DNA from: a virus | DNA length: 24,326 nt | IMG/VR virus record: IMGVR_UViG_3300044530_000167 | Location: 1 to 24,326 of that record | Strand: one strand, 5' to 3' | Shown: in pieces, positions 3,686 through 21,014 of the stretch | How the letters are laid out: the number at the start of each line of letters is the position of its first letter | Position numbering within the stretch: position 1 is the first letter of the stretch | Translations under genes and position numbers: made by a program | Notes under the pieces: model-generated | What the model was told of the DNA's origin: nothing | The model's input: only the letters and a program-made list of their open reading frames with translations | The model's database searches: none

Positions 3686-4327
3686 ATGGCAACCTACTCA
3701 GGGTATATCGCAGAAGTTAGAAGACTGCTGCATGATGCTGCTGGCAACTTCTGGACTGACACCGAGCTAACCGATTACATCAATGGTGCTCGGCATCGTG
3801 TCGTGCGTGACACGGGTTGTCTGCGCAATATCCTGACTGGTGCTACAACCACCTCGGTTGAAGTTTTTAATATATCAACCCTTACATTGCCATCATGGGC
3901 AGAGCAGATTCTTGATGTGCTAAACATCAATCTGTACTGGGGTAACACACGCATACCATTGCGATACATGTCATGGACGCAATTCAACGCTGAGTTGCGG
4001 TTTTGGCAGAACTACACGGGCAGACCCATTGCGTTTACACGTTACGGGCAGAATCAAATTTATTTTGGCCCGGTACCTGATCAGGTCTATGTGATTGAGG
4101 TTGATACCATCCTCTTGCCTGTTCCGCTTACATCAGACTCGCAGACTGAGGTGATCTTAGAGCCTTACACGTCGCCTGTAGCGTTTTATGCGGCCTACAA
4201 AGCCAAATACAAAGAGCAATCTTACGGTGAAGCAGAAATCTTCAATGCCGAGTACAAAAAGCAGTTGCTGGCAGCGATTAATTCGAGCTTCACGCGTCGT
4301 TTACCAACGCCTTACTCGGTTCAGTAA
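3686..4327 (+). CDS. Head-tail adaptor protein, SU10/P22 gp4-like
   Basis: The 213-residue protein opens with the typical adaptor helices: LLHDAAGNFWTDTELTDYIN, then ARHRVVRDTGCLR. This pattern (an Leu-Leu-His-Asp opening, Trp-x-Asp-x-Glu-Leu, then an Ile-Asn-x-Ala-Arg helix) is known in proteins that sit under the portal and form the first ring of the neck in podoviruses. A beta-rich middle (residues about 55-140) and a C-terminal helix with Tyr/Lys (AFYAAYKAKYKEQSYGEAE) complete the usual layout. It stands between small head genes and a nozzle-like gene, as expected. GAGG precedes the start. Naming it as adaptor is fairly secure; the exact family is inferred. Confidence 0.75.
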   Translation: MATYSGYIAEVRRLLHDAAGNFWTDTELTDYINGARHRVVRDTGCLRNILTGATTTSVEVFNISTLTLPSWAEQILDVLNINLYWGNTRIPLRYMSWTQFNAELRFWQNYTGRPIAFTRYGQNQIYFGPVPDQVYVIEVDTILLPVPLTSDSQTEVILEPYTSPVAFYAAYKAKYKEQSYGEAEIFNAEYKKQLLAAINSSFTRRLPTPYSVQ

Positions 4328-4329
4328 TC

Positions 4330-6069
4330 ATGGCCGCAGTTGAGCAAAAGAAGTCCTACCACGTTACCAAGGATTTCAAAGGGCTTAACACCAAAGCCAA
4401 TCGCACAGCTATTCAGGAAAATGAGTTTGCCTGGATAGAGAATGTGATGCCTATTGGGTACTCGAACCTGAAGGTCATACCCAAAGAAAAGCGCGTTACT
4501 TACAGCAGTACGAATTTCAGTTGGGGCGGCACGGTGCATTACATGGCACCAGCCAATATTGGCGGTGTCGCTTACATGTTTGCGTTCTTCACCAATGGAG
4601 GTGCGCAGTATGTCAGCTTGGAAACCCCTACCGCACCGATCACCCTGGCTAACTCAGGCACGTTCAGCGGAACCCGTACTCAGATTAGTCAATGGAAGAA
4701 TGAGCGAGTGCTCATCATTGACACAACTTATGGATACGCTACGTTTGACGGGACGAATCTCGTTCGGGTCGGTTCGGTCGGCACCATTACGATTACATCA
4801 GGAGGGTCTGCATACTCAGCGGCCCCAACCGTAACGATTAGTCCCCCTAATGAAGTTGGAGGTGTTCAAGCAACTGCAACCGCAACAATAAGCGGCGGGG
4901 TTGTAACTGCCATCACGATTACTGAGCCAGGTACAGGTTATACGTCAGCACCAACTATAACTTTTTCTAGCGGCGCCGCATCAGCTACGGCTACAGCAAT
5001 CAGCCAACCTGGCACTTGCATACAGTCCTTTTCTGGTCGTGTATGGATTGCGGACGGCAGAACCATTTACTACACAGCGGCGGATAGCTACAACGACTTC
5101 ACAAGCATTTCTGCTGGCAACATTACGTTGGTCGATGGCACTTTGTACGGTGACATCACGCAAATCATCGCTGCTAACAACTTTCTTTACATCTTTGGCG
5201 AATCGTCGATCAACGTTTTTTCGGATGTTCGCGTCAATACGCTTGGCGAAACGCTCTTTACTAACACCAATATCAGCGCTTCTATTGGTACAGAACTGTT
5301 TTTAGGTGTTTTTGCCTACTTTAGAAGCATCTTATTTATTAATCGGTATGGTGTTTATGCGCTAGTTGGCGCTACAACAACCAAGATTAGTGATGCACTT
5401 GACGGCATTTTCCCTAATATTGACTTTAGTTCAACGGTAACGGGTTGCCAGACACTGATTTACAACATTCTGGTGTCCGCATGGAACGTCAGATACAACG
5501 ACAATGGCACTTACCGGCGTGTGCAACTGGTTTTCTTTGATCGCAAGTGGTTTATTAGCTATCAAGGCAACCTAACGCACATTAATTCGTCGCCAGTCAA
5601 TGGTTTAATCAACTCCTATGGCGTCGAATCAGGCGGTGCGTTCTTCAGAATGTACGAAGACCAGACAGCTAACATCTCAACTGAGGTTGTTACAGCGCTA
5701 TGGGACTTAAAAGACCCGATTAGAGACAAGCAAGCGCTCAAACTTGGGGTTGAAGCAACATTTCCTGTTACGGTTGCTGGTTCATTGAATATTTCGATTG
5801 ATAGCGAGTCTCGCGCATCAACATCGATTGCGCTTGGCAATGCGGTTGCATGGCAAAACAATAGTTTTAACAACATTGCATGGACAAACAATGCTGGAAG
5901 CACCTTGCAATGGATTTCGTCTGGTTACCAGTTGACCGAAGGGTACAAACTGCTTAAGTACGATGCCCAAATGTATGGCAAATACCTTGGCATGACGGTA
6001 ACATCCACGGCACCAGCATTTACCTTCAACGGCTTCCAGCTTGAACATGAACTAAGAGCGAGGTTCTGA
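4330..6069 (+). CDS. Tail nozzle/stabilisation protein, P22 gp10- or T7 gp12-like
   Basis: The 579-residue protein begins with a segment typical of phage nozzle proteins (DFKGLNTKANRTAIQENEFA, then an ENVMPIGYSNLKV-like stretch), meaning 'parameters are set at N-terminus then a beta-propeller-like body'. The remainder is rich in short beta strands with aromatic residues (RVWIADGRTIYYTAADSYND), in line with a propeller. Residues about 152-225 are a Gly/Thr/Ser-rich insertion of two beta repeats that contains GTGYTSAPTITF. The gene lies just after the adaptor, where the distal ring of a podovirus tail is encoded. Its stop overlaps the start of the tail fibre gene. The role is well supported by order and style but not by a database match. 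Confidence 0.7.
   Translation: MAAVEQKKSYHVTKDFKGLNTKANRTAIQENEFAWIENVMPIGYSNLKVIPKEKRVTYSSTNFSWGGTVHYMAPANIGGVAYMFAFFTNGGAQYVSLETPTAPITLANSGTFSGTRTQISQWKNERVLIIDTTYGYATFDGTNLVRVGSVGTITITSGGSAYSAAPTVTISPPNEVGGVQATATATISGGVVTAITITEPGTGYTSAPTITFSSGAASATATAISQPGTCIQSFSGRVWIADGRTIYYTAADSYNDFTSISAGNITLVDGTLYGDITQIIAANNFLYIFGESSINVFSDVRVNTLGETLFTNTNISASIGTELFLGVFAYFRSILFINRYGVYALVGATTTKISDALDGIFPNIDFSSTVTGCQTLIYNILVSAWNVRYNDNGTYRRVQLVFFDRKWFISYQGNLTHINSSPVNGLINSYGVESGGAFFRMYEDQTANISTEVVTALWDLKDPIRDKQALKLGVEATFPVTVAGSLNISIDSESRASTSIALGNAVAWQNNSFNNIAWTNNAGSTLQWISSGYQLTEGYKLLKYDAQMYGKYLGMTVTSTAPAFTFNGFQLEHELRARF
4783..4998 (+). repeat. Two beta repeats inserted in the nozzle protein
   Basis: Residues about 152-225 hold two copies of a pattern: ITSGGSAYSAAPTVTISPP and ITEPGTGYTSAPTITFSSG, each followed by an Ala-Thr-Ala-Thr segment. 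Gly-x-x-Tyr-x-x-x-Pro-x-Val/Ile-x-Phe/Ile repeats of this kind are common in bacterial and phage surface proteins. The insertion interrupts the otherwise propeller-like sequence. Confidence 0.55.
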
Positions 6070-8645
6070 TGGCAAAGCCAGTAACAATTCCGAATACATT
6101 TGCCACCGCAACGACATCCATCCCGCTTGCTAACCTGGATGCTGATTTTTCTACGGTTGCAACAGCGCTTAATGACGCATCGACCTATAGCAACTATGCT
6201 TTAGATTCAGGTACGACGAATGCCTATGTTGTTTCGCTTTCTGGTCTATCAACAACGTACCAGGCTGGTCTTGCCATTCAGTTCCAAGCAACGAGTGCAA
6301 ATACCGGGCCTTGCACCTTAAACGTCAACGGTCAGGGCGCAAAGAACATCATTTACCCTGATGGCAGCACATTATCCGCTAATGCTATTGTGGTTGGCGC
6401 TATTTGCTCGCTCATGTATGACGGCTCTAGCTTTCAGTTGCTGTCTGTTAAGAATGCGGCAGGTGGTGGCGGCGGCGGGGGTAGTGTTTCCTCCGTTGCT
6501 ATGTCAGTACCCGCATTCTTGTCGGTTTCTGGTTCACCAATCACAACCTCTGGAACTTTAGCGGTAAGTTATTCTGGCACACCGTTACCGATTGCCAATG
6601 GTGGTACTGGTGCAACCACGGCTGCTGGCATACGAGTCACGATTGGCGCTGGCGATGTGAATGGCCCTGCTGCATCGGTTGATGATGAGATAGCGCTTTA
6701 CTCAAGCACCACTGGTAAAGTCATCAAACGTGCGACAACGACAGGCATCTTAAAAGCAACCTCCGGTGTATTGTCGGCTGCTACTGGAGGCACTGATTAT
6801 CTTGTTCCTGGCGGCGCACTTGGCACACCATCTTCTGGCGATCTATCAAACTGTACTAACCTTCCTTCTGGAAGTATTACCGGACTCGGTACTGGCGTAC
6901 TTACTGCCTTACAAACTGCTATTGGAGCAAGTGGTGCTTTTGTTCCTACAGGAGGTACAGGTGCCACCGGAACATGGAATATTGATGTTCTTGGTAATGC
7001 AGGCACTGTAACTAACGGCGTCTATACGACAGGCAGTTATGCAAATCCTGCATGGATTACATCAATTGCCGCAACCAAGATCACTGGCACATTGCCTATT
7101 GCTAATGGTGGTACAGGTCAAAGCGACAAGACATCAGCCTTTGATGCGCTAGCTCCAAATACAACCAAGGGTGACATGATTGTCTACACAGGTACGGACA
7201 ATGTTCGTTTACCTGTTGGCACAGACGGTCAAATACTGGTTGCTGATTCAAGCGCGACTGAAGGCGTTAAATGGTTTACTTCTTCGGGTGCTGGCACAGT
7301 TACATCAGTTGGAATATCTCCACCAGCATTCTTGACGGCAGGCTCTCCAGTTACCAGTTCTGGAAATATAACTCTTAGCTATTCCGGAACCGCTATTCCT
7401 ATTACTTCTGGCGGGACGGGGCTTACAGCGTTAGGAACTGCTGGTCAAGTTCTGCAAGTTAATTCAGGAGGAACCGCTCTTGAGTATGGTTCTCCTGTTG
7501 GTGTCGGCGATGTCGTAGGCCCAGCGTCCTCAGTCAATGCTCAAATTGCTTTATACAGTGGCACGACTGGTAAGCTAATCCAAGCGGCCACAACGACAGG
7601 CATGGTAAAGGCAACAAGCGGTGTTATTGCCGCTGCTGTTGCTGGCACTGATTACGTCGCACCAGGTGGTGCGCTTGGTACGCCTTCGTCAGGTACGTTG
7701 ACTAATACAACGGGTCTGCCAATCTCAACCGGTGTTGCTGGCCTTGGCACTGGCATTGCAACTGCGTTAGGACAATCCGTAGGCACTGCTGGTGCGCCGG
7801 TTCTATTTAATGGCGCATTAGGTACACCGTCAAGCGGTACGCTCACCAATGCTACTGGCTTGCCAATCAGTACTGGCGTATCTGGTTTGGGTACGGGTGT
7901 CGCAACGGCACTAGCACTGACTGCTGGCACAACGGGTGGCGTCGTTACTTATGATGGCGATGCCGGTACACCATCGGCGCTCAACCTTACTAACGCAACT
8001 GGACTTCCTTTATCGACAGGAATCACAGGAACGTTAGGTGTTGCGAACGGTGGTACAGGGTTGACTGCTATAGGTACGGCTAATCAGTACCTTAAGGTCA
8101 ATAGCGGCGGTAGTGCGCTTGAGTTTGCAACGCTGACAGCGGGTGATGTGAACGGGCCTGCAAGTTCGACAGATAATGCAATTGCTCGATTTGATTCGAC
8201 GACTGGTAAGTTGTTGCAAAACTCTAGTGCAACAATTACCGACCTTGGTCAGGCATCGTTTGTTGGCTATGCGCAGGTTACGGCTAATACAGGTGCTGGT
8301 ACATCGGGTTACTTAGAGCTACAAAGTAATGATGCAGGTTCTGGCACCAAAACGTTGCGCATCCAGCCAAGTAACGCAGCCACAACATCAACCCAGACTT
8401 ACACATTCCCAACGGACTATGGCTCTGCTGGTTACTTCTTGCAAAGCGATGGTGCTGGTGCGCTTACATGGGCTGCTGGCGGGGGTGGGGGCTCTGGTGG
8501 GCCGGTTCTTGAGTCGCAGATTGTGATTAGCCAGAACTACACATTCACAAGTAATACAAATGGATTATCAGTGTCACCTGTAACAGTAGCGGCAGGATAT
8601 TCGGTTACTGTTGGTACGGGCCAAGCCTGGATGATTTTAGGTTAA
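6069..8645 (+). CDS. Long repeat-built tail fibre protein, 858 aa
   Basis: The first 125 residues form a probable virion-attachment domain (TSIPLANLDADFSTVATALN near the start, a CTLNVNGQGAK strand later). A Gly-rich linker (about residues 131-139) leads to a long shaft made of repeats: LPIANGGTGATTAAGIR-type turns, GDVNGPAS...TTGK modules near residues 195, 480 and 692, and GALGTPSSGTLTNATGLP-type units near 249, 534 and 581 with a variant near 630. A second Gly-rich linker precedes a C-terminal motif (QNYTFTSNTNGLSVSPVTVA, then TGQAWMIL) widespread at fibre ends and probably a trimer-forming tip. It follows the nozzle gene with a TGATG overlap. The role is recognition of the host surface. 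Known family style makes the fibre call strong; the receptor cannot be predicted. Confidence 0.8.
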   Translation: MAKPVTIPNTFATATTSIPLANLDADFSTVATALNDASTYSNYALDSGTTNAYVVSLSGLSTTYQAGLAIQFQATSANTGPCTLNVNGQGAKNIIYPDGSTLSANAIVVGAICSLMYDGSSFQLLSVKNAAGGGGGGGSVSSVAMSVPAFLSVSGSPITTSGTLAVSYSGTPLPIANGGTGATTAAGIRVTIGAGDVNGPAASVDDEIALYSSTTGKVIKRATTTGILKATSGVLSAATGGTDYLVPGGALGTPSSGDLSNCTNLPSGSITGLGTGVLTALQTAIGASGAFVPTGGTGATGTWNIDVLGNAGTVTNGVYTTGSYANPAWITSIAATKITGTLPIANGGTGQSDKTSAFDALAPNTTKGDMIVYTGTDNVRLPVGTDGQILVADSSATEGVKWFTSSGAGTVTSVGISPPAFLTAGSPVTSSGNITLSYSGTAIPITSGGTGLTALGTAGQVLQVNSGGTALEYGSPVGVGDVVGPASSVNAQIALYSGTTGKLIQAATTTGMVKATSGVIAAAVAGTDYVAPGGALGTPSSGTLTNTTGLPISTGVAGLGTGIATALGQSVGTAGAPVLFNGALGTPSSGTLTNATGLPISTGVSGLGTGVATALALTAGTTGGVVTYDGDAGTPSALNLTNATGLPLSTGITGTLGVANGGTGLTAIGTANQYLKVNSGGSALEFATLTAGDVNGPASSTDNAIARFDSTTGKLLQNSSATITDLGQASFVGYAQVTANTGAGTSGYLELQSNDAGSGTKTLRIQPSNAATTSTQTYTFPTDYGSAGYFLQSDGAGALTWAAGGGGGSGGPVLESQIVISQNYTFTSNTNGLSVSPVTVAAGYSVTVGTGQAWMILG
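6651..8240 (+). repeat. Protein-level repeat modules of the tail fibre shaft
   Basis: Three modules begin GDVNGPAASVDDEIALYSST (from 6651), GDVVGPASSVNAQIALYSGT (from about 7507) and GDVNGPASSTDNAIARFDST (from about 8143). Between them lie GALGTPSSG units at about 6813, 7668 and 7809 and a variant at about 7957. The units agree well as protein but use different synonymous codons, so their DNA identity is only partial. Confidence 0.7.
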
Positions 8646-8654
8646 GGAAGCGAG

Positions 8655-9323
8655 ATGAGTAAGATCAAATTCCAAGGTAATGCAAGTGGCACTGGGACGA
8701 CAACGTTTCAGTCTGCCAACACCTCTTCTAATACGACGTTCACGCTTCCTGGCACGGACGGGACGAACGGGCAAGGATTAGTTACTGATGGTTCAGGGAC
8801 GCTTAGTTTTGCCACGGTAGGCGGCACGACAAGCAATGCGTTGACCATGAACAACGGTGGTTCTGGTGATGCATCAGGAACGACGTTTAACGGGTCTGCG
8901 GCCAGAATAATTAGCTACAACACCATCGGTGCAGTGCCGCTTAATGGTGCTTTAGGTACACCATCTTCTGGGACGCTTTCTAGTTGTACGGTAGATGGTA
9001 CAAACAAGGTTGGCTACATTGGTGCGCCACAAAGCACGAACACGACCGTAGCGGCAAGTGACGCAGGAAAGCACATTTACTTCACGGGCGGTTCGACTGC
9101 AACGCTTACAGTAAACACTAACTCGACAACTGCTATTGACGTAGGGACAGTGATTCTTGTGGTCAATAACAACTCTGGAAACCTAACAATCTCTGGCGCT
9201 GGCGTTACGTTCCAGCTTGCAAATGGTTCTACGGGTAACAGGACGGTAGCGACAAAAGGGATGGCGACGATGTTAAAGGTTGCAACCGATACTTGGTATG
9301 TTTCTGGAGCGGGGGTAACCTAA
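8655..9323 (+). CDS. Second tail fibre or spike protein, 222 aa
   Basis: AAGGAAG precedes the ATG, nine bases after the fibre stop. The N-terminal half is Gly/Ser/Thr-rich (SANTSSNTTFTLPGTDGTNG). A VPLNGALGTPSSGTLSSCTV unit near residues 95-115 repeats a module of the long fibre next door. Residues about 130-222 form a recognisable beta domain (VAASDAGKHIYFTGGSTATL, then GNRTVATKGMATMLKV and an end with TWYVSG) that recurs in many phage tail fibres. It is probably an extra fibre, or a distal part that joins the long fibre. Receptor contact is inferred. Confidence 0.7.
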   Translation: MSKIKFQGNASGTGTTTFQSANTSSNTTFTLPGTDGTNGQGLVTDGSGTLSFATVGGTTSNALTMNNGGSGDASGTTFNGSAARIISYNTIGAVPLNGALGTPSSGTLSSCTVDGTNKVGYIGAPQSTNTTVAASDAGKHIYFTGGSTATLTVNTNSTTAIDVGTVILVVNNNSGNLTISGAGVTFQLANGSTGNRTVATKGMATMLKVATDTWYVSGAGVT

Positions 9324-11395
9324 TGGCTGGCGCACTTACAGCGGCAATTGCAGCGGCGTTCTCTGGTGGCGCCGCAGTGGTCACCGACGACTACTTTGAA
9401 TACACCACGCTACTGCTTCCTGGCAACGGTACGAATGGCGCACAGAACAATACGTTCTTAGACGGTTCTACCAATAACTTCACCATCACCCGCAACGGAA
9501 ACACGACACAGGGTACGTTTAGTCCGTTCTCACAGACTGGGTGGGGGAATTATTTTGATGGTACTGGGGATTCTATTTACGCAAGTAGTGCAAATACTGC
9601 TAATGCAATGGGAACAGGGGATTGGACTATTGAGGCTTCTGTTTATAAAACAAATTCAACTGAAGGATATGTATTTGACACTTTGGCTTTAACTGGCGGG
9701 TCTACCGATGCAATTCGTATATCTATCTCTAGCAGTGGCGCAGTTTATTTTTATAAATATAGCACTTTATTAACATCCGGTGGATCAATTGCATTAAATA
9801 CATGGAATCATATTGCTGTAGTACGCCAAAGCCAGACAATAAAAATTTATTTGAATGGTACACAAGTAAATACAACGTATTCAGACACAGGATCAAACTA
9901 TACTTGCGGCACAAATAGACCCTTGGTTGGTATCAATGGATACGATATTGCTTCTGATCCATTTCAAGGATATATATCTAACTTGAGGGCCGTTAAAGGC
10001 GTAGCCGTCTACACAGGCAACTTTACCCCACCAACCTCACCATTGGCTGCTACACAGTCAGCAGGTACAAACATTTCTGCAATCACTGGTACGCAGACCT
10101 CCCTCCTCACCTGCCAATCCAACCGCTTCATAGACAACAGCAGTAACAACTTCACCATTACCAGAAACGGTGATACCAGAGTAGTCGCCTTCTCCCCATT
10201 CAACCCCACTGCTAGCTGGTCTGCTGCGACTAATGGTGGGTCAGGGTATTTCGATGGGAATGGGGATTATTTGACGGTTCCTGCAAATGCAGCGTTTACT
10301 TTAACAGGAGACTTTTGTGTTGAATTTTGGGTTTATAGCGGATTATTGGCAGGAGGAGCTACAAATCCAACATTTATAAATGATTCGGCCGGTTCTAATA
10401 GTTCTATTTTTTACGAAACAAATGGGTCAAATAGAGGGCTGTGTTTATACGCAGCAGGTGCAGCACGAATTACAACAGCAACTAATGTATTAGTAGAAAA
10501 CCAATGGAATCACGTTGCCATTGTTAGATCAGGAACGACGGGGACAAATACCGCTGCATTTGTAAATGGAACTAGAGTTGGTACTGCAACAGCTTTTACG
10601 GGTACAGTGGATTTTTCACCACCTGTTATTAACAGGTACGGCCCTAGCGCGGCAGGTTATCTAAACGGATATATGTCAAATTTTAGAATTGTCAAAGGAT
10701 CGTCTGTCTACGACCCAACATCATCAACCATAACAGTCCCCACAGCACCTCTCACCAACATCACCAACACCTCCCTCCTCCTCAACTTCACCAACGGCGG
10801 TATCTACGATGCTACTAGCAAGAATGATCTGGAGACGGTGGGGAATGCTCAGATAAGTACGACACAGAGCAAGTGGGGTGGAAGCAGTATGTACTTTGAC
10901 GGGACGGGGGATTGGTTGGCAGTCCCAACGTCTGTCCTTCCTCAATTTGGCACTGGTGACTTTACTATTGAGTTCTGGTGGTATCCAAATTCTTTAGCAA
11001 CGGCTCAACAAATAATTTCAAACACAAACGATTCAGCAGTTACAGGTTCTGGCGAGTTTGTTATTACGTACAACACTTCGCTTGGATTAAGATTTTATAT
11101 CAATGCAGGAGCGGTAGATATACAACAAGGTTCAACAACAGGCTGGACAACAGGCCAATGGTATTACGTTGCTGCTGTTAGAAGCGGTAATACACTTACG
11201 TTATACAGAAACGGAAGTTCTATTGCTTCGGGAAGTGTTACAGGCATAACAATAGGGGCAAATGTTCCATTTTATATTGGCGGCGAGCCAACGCAACCAA
11301 CATCAATAAACGGTTATTTACAAGATGTGCGAATAACTAAAGGCTACGCCAGAACGGTGACAACAAGCCCAACAGCAGCATTCCCAACCCTATAG
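9323..11395 (+). CDS. Triple LamG (concanavalin A-like) tail protein, 690 aa
   Basis: I choose the ATG at 9323 because it overlaps the preceding stop (TAATG) and follows GGGG; the longer reading from 9293 would run inside the previous gene. After an Ala-rich N-terminus come three LamG-type units, at about residues 72-233, 308-460 and 522-676. Each has the opening GxYFDGxGDxLxVP, the core TGDFTIEFWWYP, a W-N/Y-H/Y-VAxVR strand, an LYRNG turn and the closing GYLQDVRITKG. Linkers carry NNFTITRNG and SPF motifs. LamG folds bind sugars or protein surfaces, so a role in host attachment or as a virion side protein is likely. The linkers are C-rich and the domain cores AT-rich in their third codon positions, as if assembled from different sources. 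Confidence 0.8.
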   Translation: MAGALTAAIAAAFSGGAAVVTDDYFEYTTLLLPGNGTNGAQNNTFLDGSTNNFTITRNGNTTQGTFSPFSQTGWGNYFDGTGDSIYASSANTANAMGTGDWTIEASVYKTNSTEGYVFDTLALTGGSTDAIRISISSSGAVYFYKYSTLLTSGGSIALNTWNHIAVVRQSQTIKIYLNGTQVNTTYSDTGSNYTCGTNRPLVGINGYDIASDPFQGYISNLRAVKGVAVYTGNFTPPTSPLAATQSAGTNISAITGTQTSLLTCQSNRFIDNSSNNFTITRNGDTRVVAFSPFNPTASWSAATNGGSGYFDGNGDYLTVPANAAFTLTGDFCVEFWVYSGLLAGGATNPTFINDSAGSNSSIFYETNGSNRGLCLYAAGAARITTATNVLVENQWNHVAIVRSGTTGTNTAAFVNGTRVGTATAFTGTVDFSPPVINRYGPSAAGYLNGYMSNFRIVKGSSVYDPTSSTITVPTAPLTNITNTSLLLNFTNGGIYDATSKNDLETVGNAQISTTQSKWGGSSMYFDGTGDWLAVPTSVLPQFGTGDFTIEFWWYPNSLATAQQIISNTNDSAVTGSGEFVITYNTSLGLRFYINAGAVDIQQGSTTGWTTGQWYYVAAVRSGNTLTLYRNGSSIASGSVTGITIGANVPFYIGGEPTQPTSINGYLQDVRITKGYARTVTTSPTAAFPTL
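9464..11350 (+). repeat. Three LamG units with C-rich linkers
   Basis: The units at about 9535-10020, 10245-10700 and 10885-11350 share the same order of motifs as protein. The linkers between them (about 10020-10235 and 10715-10830) share sequence such as AACTTCACCATCACC at about 9476 and AACTTCACCATTACC at about 10148, and are unusually rich in codons ending in C. Confidence 0.65.
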
Positions 11396-11404
11396 GACTA
11401 GACC

Positions 11405-11719
11405 ATGCAATACTGGACAAAGAACGGGTCTATCCCAGGCACTGAAACTGATGGTACTGAAGGCTGGCAACAGGCTCCAGCACCACCGGCAGAGGTTCCT
11501 GCTAACAAAGAGGTTGTATGGTTAAACTGGGAATGGATCATCAGAGACCCTAAGCCAGCAGACAGGGCGGGTTATCAGTGGAACTGGCAGCACGAAGGTA
11601 AGACTTGGGTTGAGAGTGCTTGGGGTAACGTGGAAGTTGTAGAGGTTGTTCAGCCCCTGCAAGTTGAATCGTTTGCTACAGATCAGATTGTGAATCTAAC
11701 AACATCTCAGGTGATGTAA
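11405..11719 (+). CDS. Small Trp-rich protein in the fibre cluster, 104 aa
   Basis: AGGA precedes the ATG. The protein has eight tryptophans in its first 80 residues (WLNWEWIIRDPKP, then YQWNWQHEGKTWVESAWGN) and a beta-like pattern, with no membrane segment. It lies between the triple LamG gene and another fibre gene and its stop overlaps the next start. Small proteins in this position can be fibre assembly chaperones or fibre tips, but I see no match to known chaperone families. I leave it as unknown with a fibre-linked context. Confidence 0.55.
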   Translation: MQYWTKNGSIPGTETDGTEGWQQAPAPPAEVPANKEVVWLNWEWIIRDPKPADRAGYQWNWQHEGKTWVESAWGNVEVVEVVQPLQVESFATDQIVNLTTSQVM

Positions 11720-12285
11720 TGGCTAACACCATCAACGCCACGTCAGGCATAGGCATAGTCTCTACGGCTGACAACACCAACATCCTCACGCTACAGACCA
11801 ACGGAACTAACGGTCTTACGATAGACGCTTCTCAAAACGTATCGTTTGCTAATCAGCTATCGCTTGGCGTTAGCGGTACAACGATGCAGTTAAAGCTGTC
11901 TGCTGCGGCAGAGACGGTAACGATTTCAGCAACAGCGGCCACAGGTACGGTTAACTTTGACGTATCTACGCAGTCTATCCTGTACTACACAAGTAATGCC
12001 TCCGCTAACTGGACGCTTAACATTCGTGGGTCTAGTTCAACAACGCTTAACAGCATCATGGCTACAGGCCAGAGCGTGACGGTAACTCATCTGGTAACGC
12101 AAGGCGGTACGGCTTACTACAACTCAGCGGTTACGGTTGACGGTAGTAGCGTTACGCCTAAATGGTCAGGTGGTTCTGCGCCTAGTGCTGGAAACGCCAA
12201 TAGCGTAGACGTTTACACCTACACGCTTATCAAGACTGGTAGCGGTTCGTTCACGGTCTTTGCAAGCCAAACACGGTACGCATAA
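11719..12285 (+). CDS. Fibre-like structural protein, cyanophage style, 188 aa
   Basis: The ATG overlaps the previous stop (TAATG). The N-terminal part contains LQTNGTNGLTIDASQNVSFA, a motif common in fibre stalks. The C-terminal two thirds (ILYYTSNASANWTLNIRG, MATGQSVTVTHLV, and APSAGNANSVDVYTYTLIKT ending ASQTRYA) resemble a beta domain known in short tail fibres of T4-like cyanophages and many uncultured phages. It has no charged enzyme motif. It likely forms an accessory fibre. Its stop overlaps the next start, so the cluster is probably translated as a coupled unit. Confidence 0.7.
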   Translation: MANTINATSGIGIVSTADNTNILTLQTNGTNGLTIDASQNVSFANQLSLGVSGTTMQLKLSAAAETVTISATAATGTVNFDVSTQSILYYTSNASANWTLNIRGSSSTTLNSIMATGQSVTVTHLVTQGGTAYYNSAVTVDGSSVTPKWSGGSAPSAGNANSVDVYTYTLIKTGSGSFTVFASQTRYA

Positions 12286-12998
12286 TGCCTATCTTGTCTG
12301 CATTCGGTGCTGCTAAAGCAATAGGTGTTGCAGGCAATCCGTCTGTACAGAACTACTCCTATGATTTTAATAGCGGGGTTGTAACTTACCCAACCAGTTC
12401 ATCGTTTGCAATAGGATCAACAACAGACTTTTCAATTGAGTGTTTTGTTTACTTAGACGCTGCTCCTGCTATATCGGCTCCGGTACTAGACTTTGGATTC
12501 TCAACGACGCTAGGCACTACATACAATTTGAGATGTCAGTTTTACATTGATTCAAATAGACGCTTAGTGTTTGTTAGAAATTTGAACACTTCGATACAAA
12601 CTGTTAGCGGTACAAATCCTCAGATTTCTTTGTCAACTTGGACTTACATTGCTTGTTCGCGTGTTTCAGGTACGTTAAAGATGTTTGTTGGCACAACTCA
12701 AGTGGCGTCTACTTTGGTCGGCGGAACGATACAAACGGCTGCTGCGCCGCCAACAATTGGCAATGGTTCTGTGCAAACAAGCAGATACATTGACGGCAAG
12801 ATCAGTAACTTAAGATTTAACGTAGGTTCTGGATTTAGTTCTGCAACCATACCAACTCAGCCATTGACCGCAGGCGCTACGACAAAAATCTTGACTTGCC
12901 AGTCAGCTACGATCAAAGACAATAGCGTGGCTAATGCTGGTAGCCCGTGGTCTATTACTAGTTCTGGCGTTACTGTTTCTACTTCAGGGCCGTTTTAG
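12285..12998 (+). CDS. Single LamG-domain tail protein, 237 aa
   Basis: The start overlaps the previous stop (TAATG). A short hydrophobic N-terminus (MPILSAFGAAKAIGVAGN) is followed by a LamG/concanavalin A-like domain at about residues 20-190: a DFSIECFVYLD strand, a WTYIACSRVSGTLKMFVG segment, and the closing IDGKISNLRFNVGSGFSS. A C-terminal tail with CQSATIKDNS resembles the linker motif CQSNRFIDNSS in the triple LamG protein two genes upstream, so the two are related by duplication or exchange. Host surface binding is inferred. Confidence 0.75.
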   Translation: MPILSAFGAAKAIGVAGNPSVQNYSYDFNSGVVTYPTSSSFAIGSTTDFSIECFVYLDAAPAISAPVLDFGFSTTLGTTYNLRCQFYIDSNRRLVFVRNLNTSIQTVSGTNPQISLSTWTYIACSRVSGTLKMFVGTTQVASTLVGGTIQTAAAPPTIGNGSVQTSRYIDGKISNLRFNVGSGFSSATIPTQPLTAGATTKILTCQSATIKDNSVANAGSPWSITSSGVTVSTSGPF

Positions 12999-13000
12999 CC

Positions 13001-13339
13001 ATGAACCTAGACAATCTTTCTAACGTCGTTTTTGGGGATGCAGACGGTTTACGAGAGATGATCTTTGAGAACGCACAGCAACATCGTACGTTCTACATAC
13101 AGTTGCTAGATCAAGATATTGTGATACCTCAGTATCCACTTGCAGATGCTGATTTAGATGATCTTGATGACTGGTTATGGTCGCACTATCAAGAGCATGA
13201 AGTGCTTGCAAATAGACTAAGCCTTGAGAATCCTTTTGACTTGTTTGATACCGACTGGAACCAAGAAGATGATTTCTATGAATGGCTGCAAGGCCATCTA
13301 AGTATTCATCAATCCATCATCAATCGCTTGGGCTTGTGA
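13001..13339 (+). CDS. Acidic protein with duplicated WLxxHxxxH helices, 112 aa
   Basis: The protein is strongly acidic with many Asp, Leu and His. Two stretches share a pattern: Trp58-Leu59-x-x-His62-x-x-x-His66 and Trp95-Leu96-x-x-His99-x-x-x-His103, each followed after six or so residues by a Leu-containing helix end (NRLSL and NRLGL). A third histidine-bearing helix lies near residue 28. I recall similar short proteins in other phages near the ejection genes, but their role is not known to me. The Shine-Dalgarno sequence is weak. Metal binding or a helical dimer are possibilities only. Confidence 0.6.
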   Translation: MNLDNLSNVVFGDADGLREMIFENAQQHRTFYIQLLDQDIVIPQYPLADADLDDLDDWLWSHYQEHEVLANRLSLENPFDLFDTDWNQEDDFYEWLQGHLSIHQSIINRLGL

Positions 13340-13340
13340 T

Positions 13341-16300
13341 ATGTCTACTACGTTTCAAGTTCTTTTAGACGCAGGATTTGACCCTGATTATTTATCAGGG
13401 CTGTCTGATAGCATGAGGTCAAGGCTTGCCGCTCAGTTTGGTCTTGATGATGGATCAAATTATTCTGCTCCATCGTACGCTCCTCCTCCCGCGCCACCTC
13501 ATACTGGATTCCAGGCTCTGTTAAATGCGGGTGTTGACCAAGATTATTTATTAGGCCTATCTCCTGAAATGAGATCAAGACATGCTGCCCAGTTTGGTCT
13601 TGATACAAATTTAGATTATTCTGCTCCGCCAAACCTGCAAGCCGATTTCGCAGCAAGAGAAGCCGCAAGAATTGAAGCGGCAATACAAGCATCTCCAAGC
13701 CAAGTAGAAGCTAGATTAGAAGCTGAAAGACAAGAAGCAGCAAGAATAGCCGCTGAACGAGAGGCGGCTGTACAAGAAGCTATAAGGCAAGAAGTTGCTA
13801 GACAAGAGGCGGCAAGGATTGAGGCCGCTAGACAAGAGGAGGCAAGGGTTGAAGCGCAACGTGCGGCAGCAGCAGAAGCCGCAAGAGTAGAAGCCGCAAG
13901 AGTAGAGGCAATCCGTCAAGAACAAATACGGGCACAACAATTAGCTGATCAACAAGAAGCGGCAAGGCAAGAAGCAGCCAGAGTAGAAGCTGCAAGAGTT
14001 GAAGCTCAAAGAATTGAAACTGCAAGGCAGCAAGCGTTGGCTGCAGAACAAGCAGAACGGCAACGCGTACAAAATTTAACCAATGAACGACAAAACCTGT
14101 TTCGTCAGATTTATGGGAGAGAAGGCTCTCCAGATGAAATACAAGCCGTACTTGACATGCCTATTGATCAAGTTCGATCAACCTTACAAAAGGCTTACAC
14201 CGACTGGTTAAAGACTCAGCAGCCTGTTACGCAAGAACTTGCGCCAGTTCAAACCCCTGTTGTTCAACAGCCTTCCGCGTCATCTGCTGCAAGCCAATTG
14301 CAAGAAACAGAAGCTCAAATTGGAGTGCGCCCAAGAGAAAGCGTTGCGTCTTCTGTCGGCAATTTTGGTGAAGACGCAGCGATAGCGTTGCTTCCAGGTC
14401 TTGGGGAAGGATTGTTTGATAGTCAAGGTGACCGACATACAAGCACTTTTGTTAAAACATACAAAGTAATAAACGGTGAAATGGTTGAAACGCCATTTAC
14501 ACCGCAGGATGTTGGCTCTAATGATTTTGTTTTTTACATTGGCAGCAAAACAGGTGGCGAAGATAGAGAACGAGCGGCGCAAAGTTACCGTTTGCAAGAT
14601 GGGCAGCTTGTCCCAATAGGAGAACCATCGTATTACAAAGGCGCTCAAGATATAAGTTTTGGCGAAAGTTTTTTAAGAGAAGGGATTCCTTTTATAGCCT
14701 CAGTTGTTCCTGGTCTTAATGTAGCTATAGGCGCGGCTCTTGGCGCAACGAGCACGGTTATGGCTCAGGCGCTAGGCAATGCCGTGATGAATGCTGCATT
14801 GAGCGTTGCTGCTGGAGCAAAACCTGCTGACGCGCTAAAGAATGCTGCTGTAAGTTTTGGCGTGAGTCAGTTGGTTCCTAACCTTACAGGCAATCAATTT
14901 ATTGACAATGCTATTAGATCTGGTGCTACAGCCGCTTTAACTGGTAGCGATGTTGGGAATGCAGTAACAAATTCATTAATAGCAACGGGCGCTCAAGCGG
15001 CTTCTCAAGGTTTAAGTATTACAGGCGATAGAGCGATAGATAGTGGATTAGTATCTGCAGCAACTAGCGCGTTGCAAGCTCAAGTTACAGGGGCTGATTC
15101 TGGTTTATCCGCATTGCAGGGATTTATAAGTGGAGCAAATGCTTCGCTTAATCAAAAGCAAACACCAGAAATACCAGGCGCCTCAACAACTGTTGGTGGC
15201 GGCGCAGCAACTGATACAACCGCTCCTAGCGTTACGACAGGTGGGTTAGGTACTACGCCTGATGTCGGTATGGATACGACTGGTGGCGTTACGCAAGACG
15301 ATGTGCTTGGCATTGTGGCGCAAGAACAGGCGGCTAATCAGGCGCAGACGGTTAACCAAGCTATGCAGGGTGCGCAGCAAATTACAGCGGCAGAGGCTGC
15401 TGCTAGAGAACTTTATCCGTTGACCGAACGCTATCAAGGGCCAAACGGAACTATTTATCTAAGAGACATCAATACCGGAAAGATCACGCAATTACTGCCG
15501 ACTGGTGAAGCAAGTACGATTGCAGGTGGTGGTGTGTTTCTTGACAAACCTAACGTCATTGGCGCGGTTGAAGCATTGCCTGCTAATGCTGTATACCAAG
15601 GCATTCTCTATGCAGGCGATCCAAATCTCATCGGTAAACAGTTAACAGCTAACGATCTTGCAAGCCTGAGTATCAGCACGGAACGTGATACCAATGTATT
15701 GCCAGTAGGCAATCTTGTGGTTACTAAAAATGCTGATGGCACGGTAACGCAGCGAGATAAAGTAACGGGTGATACGGCCACCATTGACGCTAATGGCAAC
15801 ATTGTTAGCCAGACCAAGAGTGTTTACACCAGAACTAATGAAGTTGCTGGTGGTTTTACCGGCACAGCACAGGCTGGCCTTGGGGAGTTGGGCGCGGCTA
15901 TTTCCGCAACAGCGCAGCAATTAGGTGTTGACTCGCAAGGCGCTATAGATCGATTTAGGGCTATTCAAACGTCTGGCGAACTTATGCGGCCAGAGGTGGT
16001 AAATCAACAGTCGCAAGCATTTGTTGACGAGATTTACCGCGTTGCAAGCAATCCTAATTCAACAGCAGAACAAATTGCTAGAGCTATTGCTAGCGCTACG
16101 CTTAACAATCCTGCTGGCGCAGCGGCCATACTTGGTTCTGAACTTATTCAAGAACTTCCTAGTTTGTTATTGCCTGGTGGCAAAGTAGCGCAGTTCCTTG
16201 GCTCGATGGCATTAAACGCTGCCGAATCCGCTGGTGCTCAAGCCTTGCAAAAGATTGATGAACTTAGAGCAGCGAATCCTAATGCAACGCCACAAGAGCT

Positions 16301-18575
16301 TGCTCGCATGGCAAGACAGGACGCTGGTGTTGCGGGTGCCGTTACTGCTGCTATTGGCTTGATACCAGGTGCAAACAATGTCGTTGCAAGGACGTTACTT
16401 GAACCGGCAACTGAAGCATTAGAAGAAGGCTTAATTGAATACATCACGACTGGCGATGCTAATGCCGCTAAAGGTAAAGCGGTGCTTGGTGCCGTTATTG
16501 GCGGCAAGACTGCAGCCGCTATTAACACTGGTGAACAGTTAGCGGCAGCAGCACAAAACAACCTTGGTGTACAAGTGCCTGGTGGTGTGGCTGCCCCTCC
16601 TGGAGCATCGCTTACGGTTACGGGAACAAGGCTTCCTACAGATACAACGGGAACAATTCTTAATCCTAACGTTGATTTAACGCCTGGAAACCTTGGCACG
16701 TTGCTAACCGCCGGTGTTGACATACCGACTTTTGATGTTGCATCCGGCGCAACAAATACAGGCGTTGTTGTTGCTGTTGATGTAAACAGCAATCAAGCGT
16801 CTGTTATTGATAGCACTGGCGCATTAACCATTGTTCCTGCTAATGGTTTGAAGCCAGGTCAAACGACTGTATTGCCTACTGCGCCAACAGTAACGACACC
16901 GCCCGCACCGGTTGTAACTGGTGCTAGCAGTCAAGCTGCAGATGAAGTGTCATCTGTTGCGGCGCAGACTGGTTTGCCTAAATTTGTTGTTGCTAACCGC
17001 CTAAATGCCGGAGAAACGGCAGCACAAATTATCGCCAATCCAAGACCGGTGGTTGCAACTGGTGGTGGAACTGGCGGTGGAACTGGCGGTGGAACTGGCG
17101 GTGGTGGAGTAGCGGTTGACTCAGGCGGTGGGCAAGAGGTTGTAACTGGTAGTGATACGCAAGCCATTGATGAAGTTTCTTCAATTGCTGCGCAAACAGG
17201 TTTGCCTAAATTTGTTGTTGCAAATCGTTTAAGTGCTGGCGAGACTGCTGCGCAAATTATTGCTAACCCAAGACCTACGGTGACTCCTACCGGCCCTGTT
17301 GTTAGTAGTAGCGGAACTGGTGCTGCTGTAGATACTGGTACAACAATTACTGGTGTTGTCTTGCAAGACAATGGTAACGGTACATCGCTTGTGCTGACGC
17401 AAAGCGGTGGCGCAACAAACGTGCTATCAGTGGATGCAACAACGGGCACTGCACTCACTCCTGGAACAAGTGTTGCAGTTGACACATCCAATAACACGGC
17501 TACCGTTACTAGCACGGCTACAGACACAAGTACGGCGGTAACATCCGAGGCTGATACGTCTACGCAAACCGGCGCACAAACACAGACTGGCGCACAAACA
17601 CAGACTGGCGCACAGACTGCAACTGATACTGCAACGCAAGTTCAGCCTGAAGTTGCTACACAACCTACAGTTACTCCAACCGTAACTGCAGATGTAGCTC
17701 AGGCCCCTTCTGTCGCGCAACCTACATCGCCAGCAACAAATGCAACAACAGGCGTTGTCTTGCAAGACAATGGTGATGGAACCTCACTTGTATTAACCCA
17801 AGATGGAGGAGCTACTAATGTGCCATCAGTTGATACAACAGGGACTGTTTTAACACCAGGGACTAACGTAACTGTTGATACGGTTAACAATACAGCCACA
17901 TCAACAACAACCGCCGCAGATACTGCAGCGCAAACGGCTACGCAAACAGCTACAGATACAGCCACACAAGTTCAGCCCGAAACCGTTACACAAACCCAGA
18001 CTCAACCTGAAACCCAAACACAAACCCAGACCCAGCCAGAAACTGTCACGCAGACGCAACCAGAAACTCAGACGCAAACTCAAACACAAACTCAGACTCA
18101 AACACAACCAGAGCCTGTAACTCAGACTCAGCCTGAAACAGTTATACAGACTACGCCCGAACCTACGCCACAGATCAACACAGAAGAGCCTGAACCTACG
18201 CAGCCAGAAGACTTGATCTCGCCGCCTACTGATCTCACGCCTGAAGATCAATTGCTGCAACAAATCATTAAAGAGTTAGAGAAGCCAACTGTGCCTGAAA
18301 CGCCACCTCCTCCTCCTATCGAGCCACCATTTACACCGCCAGAATCAATTGTAGAAACACCGCCTATAACAGTTGAACAAACATTGACCGTTAAACCAAG
18401 AACGGTGCCAACTGTTCCGCCTGGAAGTAGGGTGCAAGAATCTGCTCAGATACTACCTATCAGGCCGGGCTTGTCAGAAGGCTATCTAGGTGATATAGAG
18501 GGTACGCCTGAAGAAAAGCAGGAGCCCGTCTGGAACGTTAGATCGTTGAAATTACGTCGATTGTTAGGAATCTAA
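13341..18575 (+). CDS. Giant modular internal-virion (ejection) protein candidate, 1744 aa
   Basis: This is the largest gene in the window. Order of parts: two N-terminal 40-residue repeats (residues 4-43 and 56-97, LLDAGFDPDYLSGLS type); a long Ala/Arg/Glu/Gln coiled coil (about 104-250); a short helical domain with YGREGSPDEIQAVLDM; a mixed region (about 340-440); two hydrophobic Ala/Gly-rich, possibly membrane-inserting regions (about 444-560 and 908-1067, the latter with LEPATEALEEGLIEY); beta repeats at about 1139, 1337 and 1471; two 37-residue helical repeats; a Gln/Thr-rich low-complexity stretch (about 1550-1600); and a basic end (NVRSLKLRRLLGI). Large size, membrane-active segments and position before three other helical virion proteins fit the T7 gp16-like ejection role. 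No lysozyme or transglycosylase active site is evident. Other options are a tape-like or tail-sheath protein. Confidence 0.6.
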   Translation: MSTTFQVLLDAGFDPDYLSGLSDSMRSRLAAQFGLDDGSNYSAPSYAPPPAPPHTGFQALLNAGVDQDYLLGLSPEMRSRHAAQFGLDTNLDYSAPPNLQADFAAREAARIEAAIQASPSQVEARLEAERQEAARIAAEREAAVQEAIRQEVARQEAARIEAARQEEARVEAQRAAAAEAARVEAARVEAIRQEQIRAQQLADQQEAARQEAARVEAARVEAQRIETARQQALAAEQAERQRVQNLTNERQNLFRQIYGREGSPDEIQAVLDMPIDQVRSTLQKAYTDWLKTQQPVTQELAPVQTPVVQQPSASSAASQLQETEAQIGVRPRESVASSVGNFGEDAAIALLPGLGEGLFDSQGDRHTSTFVKTYKVINGEMVETPFTPQDVGSNDFVFYIGSKTGGEDRERAAQSYRLQDGQLVPIGEPSYYKGAQDISFGESFLREGIPFIASVVPGLNVAIGAALGATSTVMAQALGNAVMNAALSVAAGAKPADALKNAAVSFGVSQLVPNLTGNQFIDNAIRSGATAALTGSDVGNAVTNSLIATGAQAASQGLSITGDRAIDSGLVSAATSALQAQVTGADSGLSALQGFISGANASLNQKQTPEIPGASTTVGGGAATDTTAPSVTTGGLGTTPDVGMDTTGGVTQDDVLGIVAQEQAANQAQTVNQAMQGAQQITAAEAAARELYPLTERYQGPNGTIYLRDINTGKITQLLPTGEASTIAGGGVFLDKPNVIGAVEALPANAVYQGILYAGDPNLIGKQLTANDLASLSISTERDTNVLPVGNLVVTKNADGTVTQRDKVTGDTATIDANGNIVSQTKSVYTRTNEVAGGFTGTAQAGLGELGAAISATAQQLGVDSQGAIDRFRAIQTSGELMRPEVVNQQSQAFVDEIYRVASNPNSTAEQIARAIASATLNNPAGAAAILGSELIQELPSLLLPGGKVAQFLGSMALNAAESAGAQALQKIDELRAANPNATPQELARMARQDAGVAGAVTAAIGLIPGANNVVARTLLEPATEALEEGLIEYITTGDANAAKGKAVLGAVIGGKTAAAINTGEQLAAAAQNNLGVQVPGGVAAPPGASLTVTGTRLPTDTTGTILNPNVDLTPGNLGTLLTAGVDIPTFDVASGATNTGVVVAVDVNSNQASVIDSTGALTIVPANGLKPGQTTVLPTAPTVTTPPAPVVTGASSQAADEVSSVAAQTGLPKFVVANRLNAGETAAQIIANPRPVVATGGGTGGGTGGGTGGGGVAVDSGGGQEVVTGSDTQAIDEVSSIAAQTGLPKFVVANRLSAGETAAQIIANPRPTVTPTGPVVSSSGTGAAVDTGTTITGVVLQDNGNGTSLVLTQSGGATNVLSVDATTGTALTPGTSVAVDTSNNTATVTSTATDTSTAVTSEADTSTQTGAQTQTGAQTQTGAQTATDTATQVQPEVATQPTVTPTVTADVAQAPSVAQPTSPATNATTGVVLQDNGDGTSLVLTQDGGATNVPSVDTTGTVLTPGTNVTVDTVNNTATSTTTAADTAAQTATQTATDTATQVQPETVTQTQTQPETQTQTQTQPETVTQTQPETQTQTQTQTQTQTQPEPVTQTQPETVIQTTPEPTPQINTEEPEPTQPEDLISPPTDLTPEDQLLQQIIKELEKPTVPETPPPPPIEPPFTPPESIVETPPITVEQTLTVKPRTVPTVPPGSRVQESAQILPIRPGLSEGYLGDIEGTPEEKQEPVWNVRSLKLRRLLGI
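13350..13632 (+). repeat. Two N-terminal repeats of about 40 residues in the giant protein
   Basis: Copy one contains LLDAGFDPDYLSGLSDSMRS and copy two LLNAGVDQDYLLGLSPEMRS, each followed by an AAQFGLD and YSAP segment. The DNA also keeps matches such as GCTGCCCAGTTTGGTCTTGAT-like stretches in both, so the duplication is not very old. Confidence 0.7.
16922..17280 (+). repeat. Two 37-residue helical repeats around a Gly-rich linker
   Basis: The motif AAQTGLPKFVVANRL, followed by a variant of NAGETAAQIIANPRP, occurs at about 16960-17050 and 17190-17280, preceded by an acidic DEVSS helix in both. Bases GGTTTGCCTAAATTTGTTG are identical in both copies. A Gly-rich linker built from a 12-base unit (GGCGGTGGAACT, 17061-17108) lies between them. 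Confidence 0.75.
17565..17618 (+). repeat. 18-base tandem repeat, three units
   Basis: Units at 17565-17582, 17583-17600 and 17601-17618 encode a Gln-Thr-Gly-Ala-Gln-Thr motif. The middle unit reads CAGACTGGCGCACAAACA; the first differs by two bases and the last by two or three near its end. Such units can change in number by slippage. Confidence 0.75.
17990..18125 (+). repeat. Gln-Thr low-complexity tract
   Basis: The sequence codes for alternating Gln and Thr broken by Pro-Glu (QTQTQPETQTQTQTQ style). Gln codons CAA and CAG are mixed and Thr codons vary, so the tract is kept as protein rather than as a simple DNA microsatellite. It is probably a flexible linker ahead of the Pro-rich C-terminal part. 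Confidence 0.7.
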
Positions 18576-18577
18576 TC

Positions 18578-19600
18578 ATGGCTAAACAACTTGCCGCACT
18601 TCTCGGTGGTGGCCTCGATCTCAAAGCCTTAGCAGAGATGCTACGCAGGCAGGGCCGTGGACAAGATACTATCTTGGCGCACATCACACCGCAAGAGGCT
18701 GCACTACTAAAGTCTAGAGGTGGTGCTGGAACCATGAATCCTACAACGGGATTGCCTGAGTTTGAAGATGGTGGATTTCTTGGTGGCTATGAAGACATGG
18801 CTCCTGCTGAACAGCAAGGACTTGATAACCAAGTCTTTTCGCCAGAAACTGTATCTCAACCCATTGATATGAGTAACGCATTTATTTACTCAGCGCCTGC
18901 CGATACGATGGAGCCAGCGCAAACTCAACCACAGTTTGAGCCAGCAATGACTAGATCGTTTACGCCTCAGTTGCCACAAATGCCTAATGAGTTTGTTGGG
19001 CCGCAGCAGGTTCGAGACTTCAAACAAGAAGCAATAGATCAAGGTGCTGCTCCTGGCCGTAGTTTTGAAGACATGCTCAAGACTGGCGCAAAACAAGTGC
19101 TAGGCACTAGAGAAGGGTTGGCTGGACTTGGCACTGCTGCCGCATTGTTTCAAGCTAGGCAAGCTGGGCAACAAGCTCGCAGAATGCAGCAAGAGTTATC
19201 TCAGATAGGCGCACCTAATCGCGCACTTGGTCAAGAGATGATTGCTCGCGGTCAGCGTGGTGAGTTGACTCCAGTGCAAATGCAGCAAATGGCGGCGCTT
19301 GATGCAAGGCAAAAGCAACAGCTTGCACAACGAGGCTTGACTAGCGGTACTGCACAGCAACAACAGCAAGCGCGTATGCAAGAGATGCAACAGCGTGGTG
19401 CTCAAGACTTGATTGACCAAGGCATCAAGATTGCTGGCATTGGTGATCAGTACCAGGCTGCCGCTATTCGTGCTGGTTACGCTGCTGATCAAGCTACGCG
19501 TGACATGCTCAATACGACATTGACCAATCTATACCGCACTATCTACGGCAATGTAGCAACGCCGGAAACAACTTCTAAGACGCCGCCACCGAGAGGTTAA
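18578..19600 (+). CDS. Helical internal-virion-type protein, 340 aa
   Basis: AGGAA precedes the ATG, two bases after the giant gene stops. The N-terminal 65 residues hold a recognisable phage segment: an Ala/Leu/Arg helix (LDLKALAEMLRRQGRG), then AHITPQEAALLKSRGG and GTMNPTTGLPEFEDGG. A Pro/Gln-rich disordered part covers about 75-150. From about residue 170 the protein is a long helix rich in Gln, Ala, Met and Arg (ARMQEMQQRGAQDLIDQG) that looks like a virion coiled coil. It has no clear membrane segment. The place among large helical proteins supports an ejection or inner core role; the precise function is unknown. Confidence 0.6.
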   Translation: MAKQLAALLGGGLDLKALAEMLRRQGRGQDTILAHITPQEAALLKSRGGAGTMNPTTGLPEFEDGGFLGGYEDMAPAEQQGLDNQVFSPETVSQPIDMSNAFIYSAPADTMEPAQTQPQFEPAMTRSFTPQLPQMPNEFVGPQQVRDFKQEAIDQGAAPGRSFEDMLKTGAKQVLGTREGLAGLGTAAALFQARQAGQQARRMQQELSQIGAPNRALGQEMIARGQRGELTPVQMQQMAALDARQKQQLAQRGLTSGTAQQQQQARMQEMQQRGAQDLIDQGIKIAGIGDQYQAAAIRAGYAADQATRDMLNTTLTNLYRTIYGNVATPETTSKTPPPRG

Positions 19601-19602
19601 TC

Positions 19603-21006: not shown

Positions 21007-21014
21007 GGTGATTT

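Follow-up and report, generated by a model that had tools for sequence, protein, structure and literature searches.

A triple-LamG phage protein whose variable cores appear to be exchanged within a conserved framework

Domain exchange is established for phage receptor-binding proteins (Smug et al. 2023, PMC10684548), and the sections of that study drawn on here describe recent exchange in host-contact proteins of both related and unrelated phages, a situation similar to the one reported below. The tail-fibre example in those sections joins a conserved N-terminus to differing C-termini, whereas the protein described here shows three successive alternations of conserved and variable parts; the terms lectin, laminin, and concanavalin are absent from the main text of the study. 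In aquatic phages, variable lectin-like host-recognition genes have been described (Mizuno et al. 2014, PMC3909814): in the sections concerned, host-recognition genes of marine metaviromic islands, nine of them annotated as lectin-like, under-recruit reads and show variability inside the gene, as here. The same sections are based on read recruitment, and framework/core exchange and codon composition are not reported in them. For cryoconite phages, the excerpt considered (PMC7468147) describes gene variants that shuffle independently, with near-identical variants, host-recognition genes included, in varying combinations that are attributed there to recombination, a description that differs from ours in being given there at the level of gene modules. 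Pelagimyophage structural proteins, according to the part of PMC7029224 used, include concanavalin A domains. Among the matches listed from the open-licence PMC literature, no title or abstract opening deals with an exchange of cores in LamG proteins of phages. What sets the present locus apart from these known systems is the repeated alternation of framework and core, the slot-wise assortment of cores, and a codon signature.

The locus lies in a window of 24,326 bases of viral DNA (the whole stretch analysed), where a plus-strand gene at 9323..11395 encodes a 690-aa product with three LamG/ConA-like units, as seen in the list of open reading frames (ORFs), in Pfam, and in an AlphaFold2 model. 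Its start codon (ATG) overlaps the preceding gene's stop, and the open frame can also begin at a TTG at 9293. Pfam Laminin_G_3 matched the protein in three stretches (181.4 bits at a curated cut-off of 27.6; E 1.6e-53), the domain that characterizes phage LamG/ConA-like lectin virion proteins. The gene sits within a block of virion-structure genes, with a major head protein (1577-2578) and head/tail protein families (3686-6069) upstream in the same window, and six of the ten PHROG families that matched its product are baseplate wedge or virion structural, the other four being of unknown function. Among deposited phages, the lake phage DSL-LC04 is the best relative (48.6% over 97%). From its fold, its place in the gene block, and the way it varies, we infer a role in adhesion with exchangeable specificity for the protein, and we consider it quite probable that the protein is a modular phage adhesin of three LamG units, with cores exchanged by ordinary recombination and with receptor binding as its presumed task.

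For comparison, we collected 237 ORFs with LamG units, 138 of which had exactly three; 122 of these were near-complete and 109 remained in a set non-redundant at 95%, which includes the window and yields 5,886 pairs, ORFs of more than 95% overall identity having been removed first. Most of the relatives' records are metagenome contigs and fragments, and relatives are named below by locus numbers (L003 and so on). Because 82 of the 108 relatives were fetched by patterns in the second framework segment (linker 1), counts for that segment are biased towards high values. Six peptide patterns, of which five lie in cores and one lies at 9380-9403, supplied the remaining 26, and that peptide search retained 80 of 90 relatives. 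Apart from the pattern at 9380-9403, no search was aimed at linkers 0 and 2. The two groups of relatives gave conservation profiles of the same shape, and C at two-fold sites was more frequent in linkers than in cores both among the 82 (0.62 versus 0.30) and, as a weaker excess, among the 26 (0.52 versus 0.28). A collection of bacterial genomes returned nine pattern matches, of which four were relatives, though weak ones (24-50% in their best-matching segment), and no bacterial host could be assigned by this route. One of the relatives, a 331-kb viral contig (L016), carries three successive three-LamG ORFs at 5829-13910, and L018 carries two.

Along the window gene, framework segments and cores follow one another in a regular order, all on the plus strand. 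Framework segment L0 (9399..9556, C-rich at third positions, its edge at ~9557 being a breakpoint against L003) precedes variable core 1 (9578..9960, AT-rich, GC3 0.23); segment L1 (10058..10237, SLLTCQSNRF...SPFNP, third-position C up to 0.70) precedes core 2 (10262..10655, AT-rich, GC3 0.23); and segment L2 (10688..10909, NTSLLLNFTN...FDGTG, third-position C up to 0.70, with a breakpoint against L003 near 10780) precedes core 3 (10910..11303, AT-rich, GC3 0.29), which is common to L003. An end segment at 11306..11392 is delimited by its conservation among the relatives. The layout usual for mosaic receptor-binding proteins, a conserved N-terminal anchor with a variable C-terminal binding part, is not seen; the parts alternate along the protein. 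A first, sequence-only reading of this DNA had named conserved linkers with variable cores in relatives as a pattern that would support exchange, and this is what we observed, with mean pairwise amino-acid identities of 0.59-0.67 for linkers and 0.23-0.26 for cores across the 109 three-unit ORFs, the window included, rather than equal conservation of the two. At the DNA level, the mean number of matching loci among 102 non-redundant ones was 72.2 for linker 0 (9413-9550), 35.3 for linker 1, the search target (10097-10260), and 46.2 for linker 2 (10745-10900), compared with 1.0 for core 1 (9600-9950), 0.1 for core 2 (10340-10650), and 1.1 for core 3. The deposited DSL-LC04 genome repeats the pattern, with linkers at 0.77-0.91 amino-acid identity and GC3 of 0.56-0.67, and cores at 0.27-0.33 identity and GC3 of 0.19-0.27.

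The third-position profile of the gene, taken in 30-codon windows in the frame of 9323-11395, is far from flat. The same reading had placed two C-rich blocks at 10020-10235 and 10715-10830, which is right to within tens of bases: the fraction of codons ending in C (C3) was 0.47-0.70 within 10058-10237 (0.70 at 10103-10207) and 0.50-0.70 within 10688-10852 (0.70 at 10718-10822). It had overlooked a third, N-terminal block at 9353-9550, where C3 was 0.37-0.50 within 9353-9547 and reached 0.50 at 9413-9502. The cores, as had been stated, are AT-rich at third positions, with GC3 mostly at 0.17-0.30. The sharpness of the alternation exceeds that expected from a shuffle in which synonymous codons traded places within the gene and the protein was kept: the linkers hold 63 C-endings in 132 codons, compared with a shuffle mean of 31.9 (SD 4.2, maximum 47 in 10,000 shuffles). 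Because the linker limits had been set from the profile itself, we added a boundary-free test, in which the richest 40-codon stretch held 28 C-endings, compared with at most 23 in 3,000 shuffles. The C-richness of the linkers is not an amino-acid effect, since 14 of 15 amino acids end in C more often in linkers than in cores over the 109 ORFs including the window, the exception being His. The end segment of the window gene is conserved, yet has a GC3 of only 0.30-0.37.

That cores have been exchanged, as the sequence-only reading proposed, is supported by proteins that have a single core in common and are unrelated in their remaining cores. Recent sharing of cores is seldom seen (17 of 5,886 pairs): at an amino-acid identity of at least 0.7, 5869 pairs share no core, 16 share one, 1 shares two, and 0 share all three. 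Across pairs, the rank correlation of identity was 0.04-0.09 between cores and 0.33-0.54 between linkers. Where the mean linker DNA identity was at least 0.75, 638 of 645 cores were below 0.4 amino-acid identity, 2 lay at 0.4-0.6, none between 0.6 and 0.7, and 5 at 0.7 or above, and it is this near absence of intermediate core identities at similar linkers that points to replacement rather than gradual divergence. A near-identical segment joined to an unrelated one in two phages is visible directly in two comparisons with the window. Against L003, L0 is 0.99 identical in nucleotides, core 1 only 0.17 and core 2 0.29 in amino acids, and core 3 0.96 in amino acids and 0.97 in nucleotides; DNA identity of 99% from ~9402 to 9556 collapses abruptly near 9557, and similarity returns near 10780 and extends across core 3 as far as 11644, inside the next gene. 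Against L205, the linkers are 0.91-0.93 identical in nucleotides, with all three cores at 0.24-0.27 in amino acids. An assembly chimera is argued against by the identity of L003 with L004, which come from metagenome records of different number and agree over 13.9 kb, and by that of L002 with the window over 14.1 kb.

Beyond the window, L010 and L028 share one core with a DNA identity of 1.00, next to cores at only 0.30-0.44, and among complete units cores are also shared across slots: L191 slot 1 resembles L188 slot 3 (0.75 amino-acid identity), L173 slot 1 resembles slot 2 of L201 and of L137 (0.73), and slot 3 of 5 in L174 resembles slot 1 of 3 in L175 (0.95). Of the window's own cores, core 1 has its nearest relative in slot 1 of 5 of L010 (0.74) and core 3 in L003, and no relative of core 2 reaches 0.7 among the loci compared. 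Our listing of shared cores has 204 rows, 120 of them not marked as duplicates, and we treat these 120 as examples rather than as a count because they include overlapping or truncated contigs (such as L005/L020, L202/L195/L204, and L126/L160). A 6-mer screen of ORFs with complete units returned 0 pairs with two shared cores and an unrelated third, and 0 pairs of otherwise matching genes that differ in one core only, so that the cleanest type of swap is not in hand. The edges of shared blocks vary: in several of 16 pairs examined, those from overlapping or closely related contigs, the shared block extends far beyond the framework, and in others it falls into pieces, with edges not all in the framework; L018/L016 was left out of these 16 pairs, both loci having several three-unit ORFs.

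The composition contrast runs through the family, with linker GC3 above core GC3 in 107 of the 109 ORFs, and for this reason it does not by itself date a swap here. The earlier suggestion that the alternation is a sign of swapping is compatible with the data, but the proof comes from shared sequence and not from composition. When we regressed GC3 on that of the locus's own backbone (101 of the 109 loci, those with at least 800 backbone codons; 98 loci for the gene controls), the slope was 0.44 for cores (bootstrap 0.29-0.64), 0.86 for linkers (0.68-1.04), and 0.91 for ordinary genes (0.80-1.04 over 300 random draws). Core GC3 still correlates with the backbone (rho 0.63), and cores within one gene are alike in GC3 (rho 0.48-0.56, or 0.30-0.45 after removal of the backbone), so either the donors are not random or amelioration has been substantial. 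Linker GC3 also lies above that of its own genome in 83 of 101 loci; with amino acids matched, this holds for linkers at 81 and for cores at 8 of the 101 loci, an excess of the linkers that imported cores do not explain.

Such an excess speaks for an alternative that accepts the exchange and attributes the contrast to region-specific selection for C-ending framework codons, acting on accuracy, speed, or mRNA structure. We regard this as possible but doubtful. It fits the presence of the contrast in nearly all ORFs, the more frequent C-endings at conserved than at variable linker columns (0.62 versus 0.49), and the presence of a resident gene of the window, at 11719-12285, that is just as C-rich at two-fold sites (0.78). 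Conserved core columns, on the other hand, are barely more C-ending than variable ones (0.31 versus 0.29), which is where conservation-driven codon accuracy fails as a cause, and selection on linkers does not predict a core slope half that of ordinary genes. Overall, the composition is consistent with imported, AT-biased cores, and codon selection has likely also acted on the framework to some degree.

A dedicated diversification system, either a diversity-generating retroelement or site-specific shuffling, would be another way to produce fixed and variable parts in alternation, and our data do resemble such systems in outline. An exact 30-base stretch of linker 1 recurs across 10 viral contigs, of which one is near-identical to the window over the region available and three are alike; in distant pairs, linkers also have a synonymous identity a little higher than expected (0.375 versus 0.331; cores, 0.390 versus 0.377). 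We nevertheless judge this explanation very unlikely: neither a reverse transcriptase (PF00078) nor a serine recombinase (PF00239), the two families searched for, was found in any of 15 records (0/15 each, in records that may be fragments), and it is whole cores that differ. A fixed DNA crossover site is likewise not supported, given that the linker 1 motif takes 116 DNA forms among the 148 copies found and that synonymous identity barely exceeds expectation. Also very unlikely is the view that nothing was exchanged and that cores diverged in place under strong diversifying selection while structural constraint held the linkers, which is in keeping with the LamG fold and the few conserved positions that the cores retain and with the lack of gene pairs differing in a single core, but is at odds with the scarcity of intermediate identities (2 of 645 at 0.4-0.6), the identical L010/L028 core beside divergent ones, and the related cores in different slots. 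Core replacement by ordinary homologous recombination across conserved framework DNA remains, in our opinion, the simplest agent.

An AlphaFold2 model of the 690-aa protein (mean pLDDT 87.9, pTM 0.90), built from an alignment of 60 sequences (the window protein, L003, and 58 of 60 references drawn randomly from the 108), indicates what piece of the protein is replaced. The segments called linkers in the sequence-only reading are predicted to be ordered, strand-bearing framework and not flexible connections: 14 of 15 ten-residue blocks in residues 31-80, 251-300, and 471-520 have a pLDDT of at least 90, and strands are predicted at 56-58, 62-64, and 75-79 in the first, 259-263, 278-282, and 286-288 in the second, and 483-487, 504-506, and 510-512 in the third. 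Because of these ordered strands in the model, the exchanged piece would be the middle of each unit, between framework segments. Foldseek matched the units to laminin, neurexin, and pentraxin LG domains, as expected for a LamG jelly roll; laminin and neurexin (5xau and 3qcw, with the pentraxin 3flp) share the general LG/LNS fold, and the former two also the tandem arrangement, but these are animal proteins at 10-17% identity among the matches listed (of 50). Since trans-sialidases and clostridial toxin binding domains are also among the matches, no function can be read from the fold by itself. A whole-length match in BFVD, A0A6J7WT99 of an uncultured Caudovirales phage (TM 0.84, 35% identity), is named merely as belonging to the ConA-like lectin/glucanase superfamily.

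The mechanism that we propose would run as follows. In a virion adhesin in which each LamG unit combines a conserved framework with a variable core, single cores would be replaced independently by recombination, yielding a three-slot mosaic, as the sequence comparisons support; in several clear cases the replacement edges lie in or near the framework, and related cores occupy different slots in different phages. The framework follows the resident genome in its composition, and the cores, lower in GC3 and following the genome half as steeply, may be drawn from a shared and on average AT-richer pool in other aquatic phages. Homologous or near-homologous recombination across framework DNA could move them, with no dedicated recombinase. 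If each core bears a ligand site, for a glycan or a surface protein, its exchange would alter adsorption specificity, and core exchange probably lets aquatic phages alter what they stick to.

The sequence-only reading had also spoken of a fixed frame of linkers. The framework is indeed conserved, but it is not tied to one phage lineage: in L205, L206, and L207, framework DNA is 0.81-0.93 identical to the window, and when 11 proteins of the window were compared with the DNA available for these loci (14.8 kb for L205, 4.9 kb for L206, 11.0 kb for L207), matches came only from the two LamG proteins and the product of 11405-11719, with the exception of one extra 31-aa match in L207. As read from these contigs, the frame is not confined to a single lineage and apparently moves too. 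A wider picture, to which we give about an even chance of being correct, is that many aquatic phages, very large ones such as that of the 331-kb contig included, share a pool of LamG cores for a mostly three-slot frame, that this frame and a 104-aa companion gene move between unlike phages, that cores assort slot by slot without a dedicated enzyme, and that the resident frame and the travelling cores can be told apart by their codon composition. Framework motif, slot number, core identity, and GC3 offset would together provide a sequence-only handle for tracking natural swaps of adhesion specificity; they make it testable whether a swap takes in a whole domain or the central part of a fold, bounded by framework strands, and time series combined with complete genomes would allow donors and rates to be counted.

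The 104-aa companion gene (11405..11719, plus strand) is recognized by its position after the LamG ORF and by its relatives. Its product is 64-72% identical in L003, L205, L206, and L207, and the gene lies directly 3' of the LamG ORF in 54 of 61 loci with a match (not dereplicated; L210 and the window's own locus, L001, excluded). A small chaperone gene after a fibre gene is a common arrangement in phages, and because of this order our guess, by analogy, is that the product may be a fibre chaperone or cap. Farther downstream, a second LamG gene at 12285-12998 encodes a single unit (237 aa) that is weakly similar to the LamG regions of the relatives. The backbone composition of the window is itself uneven, since the four big downstream genes (13341-22631) have a GC3 of 0.31-0.40, below the 0.47-0.55 of the genes upstream of 9323, except 6069-8645. 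The first of the downstream genes, a 1744-aa ORF at 13341-18575, found no match at E 0.01 in PHROG and NCBIfam searches. It has 15-base tandem repeats near its start (13658-14026), and its end (17057-18383) consists of many short tandem repeats coding for Thr/Gln/Pro-rich sequence, where GC skew falls to -0.25 and AT skew rises to 0.39.
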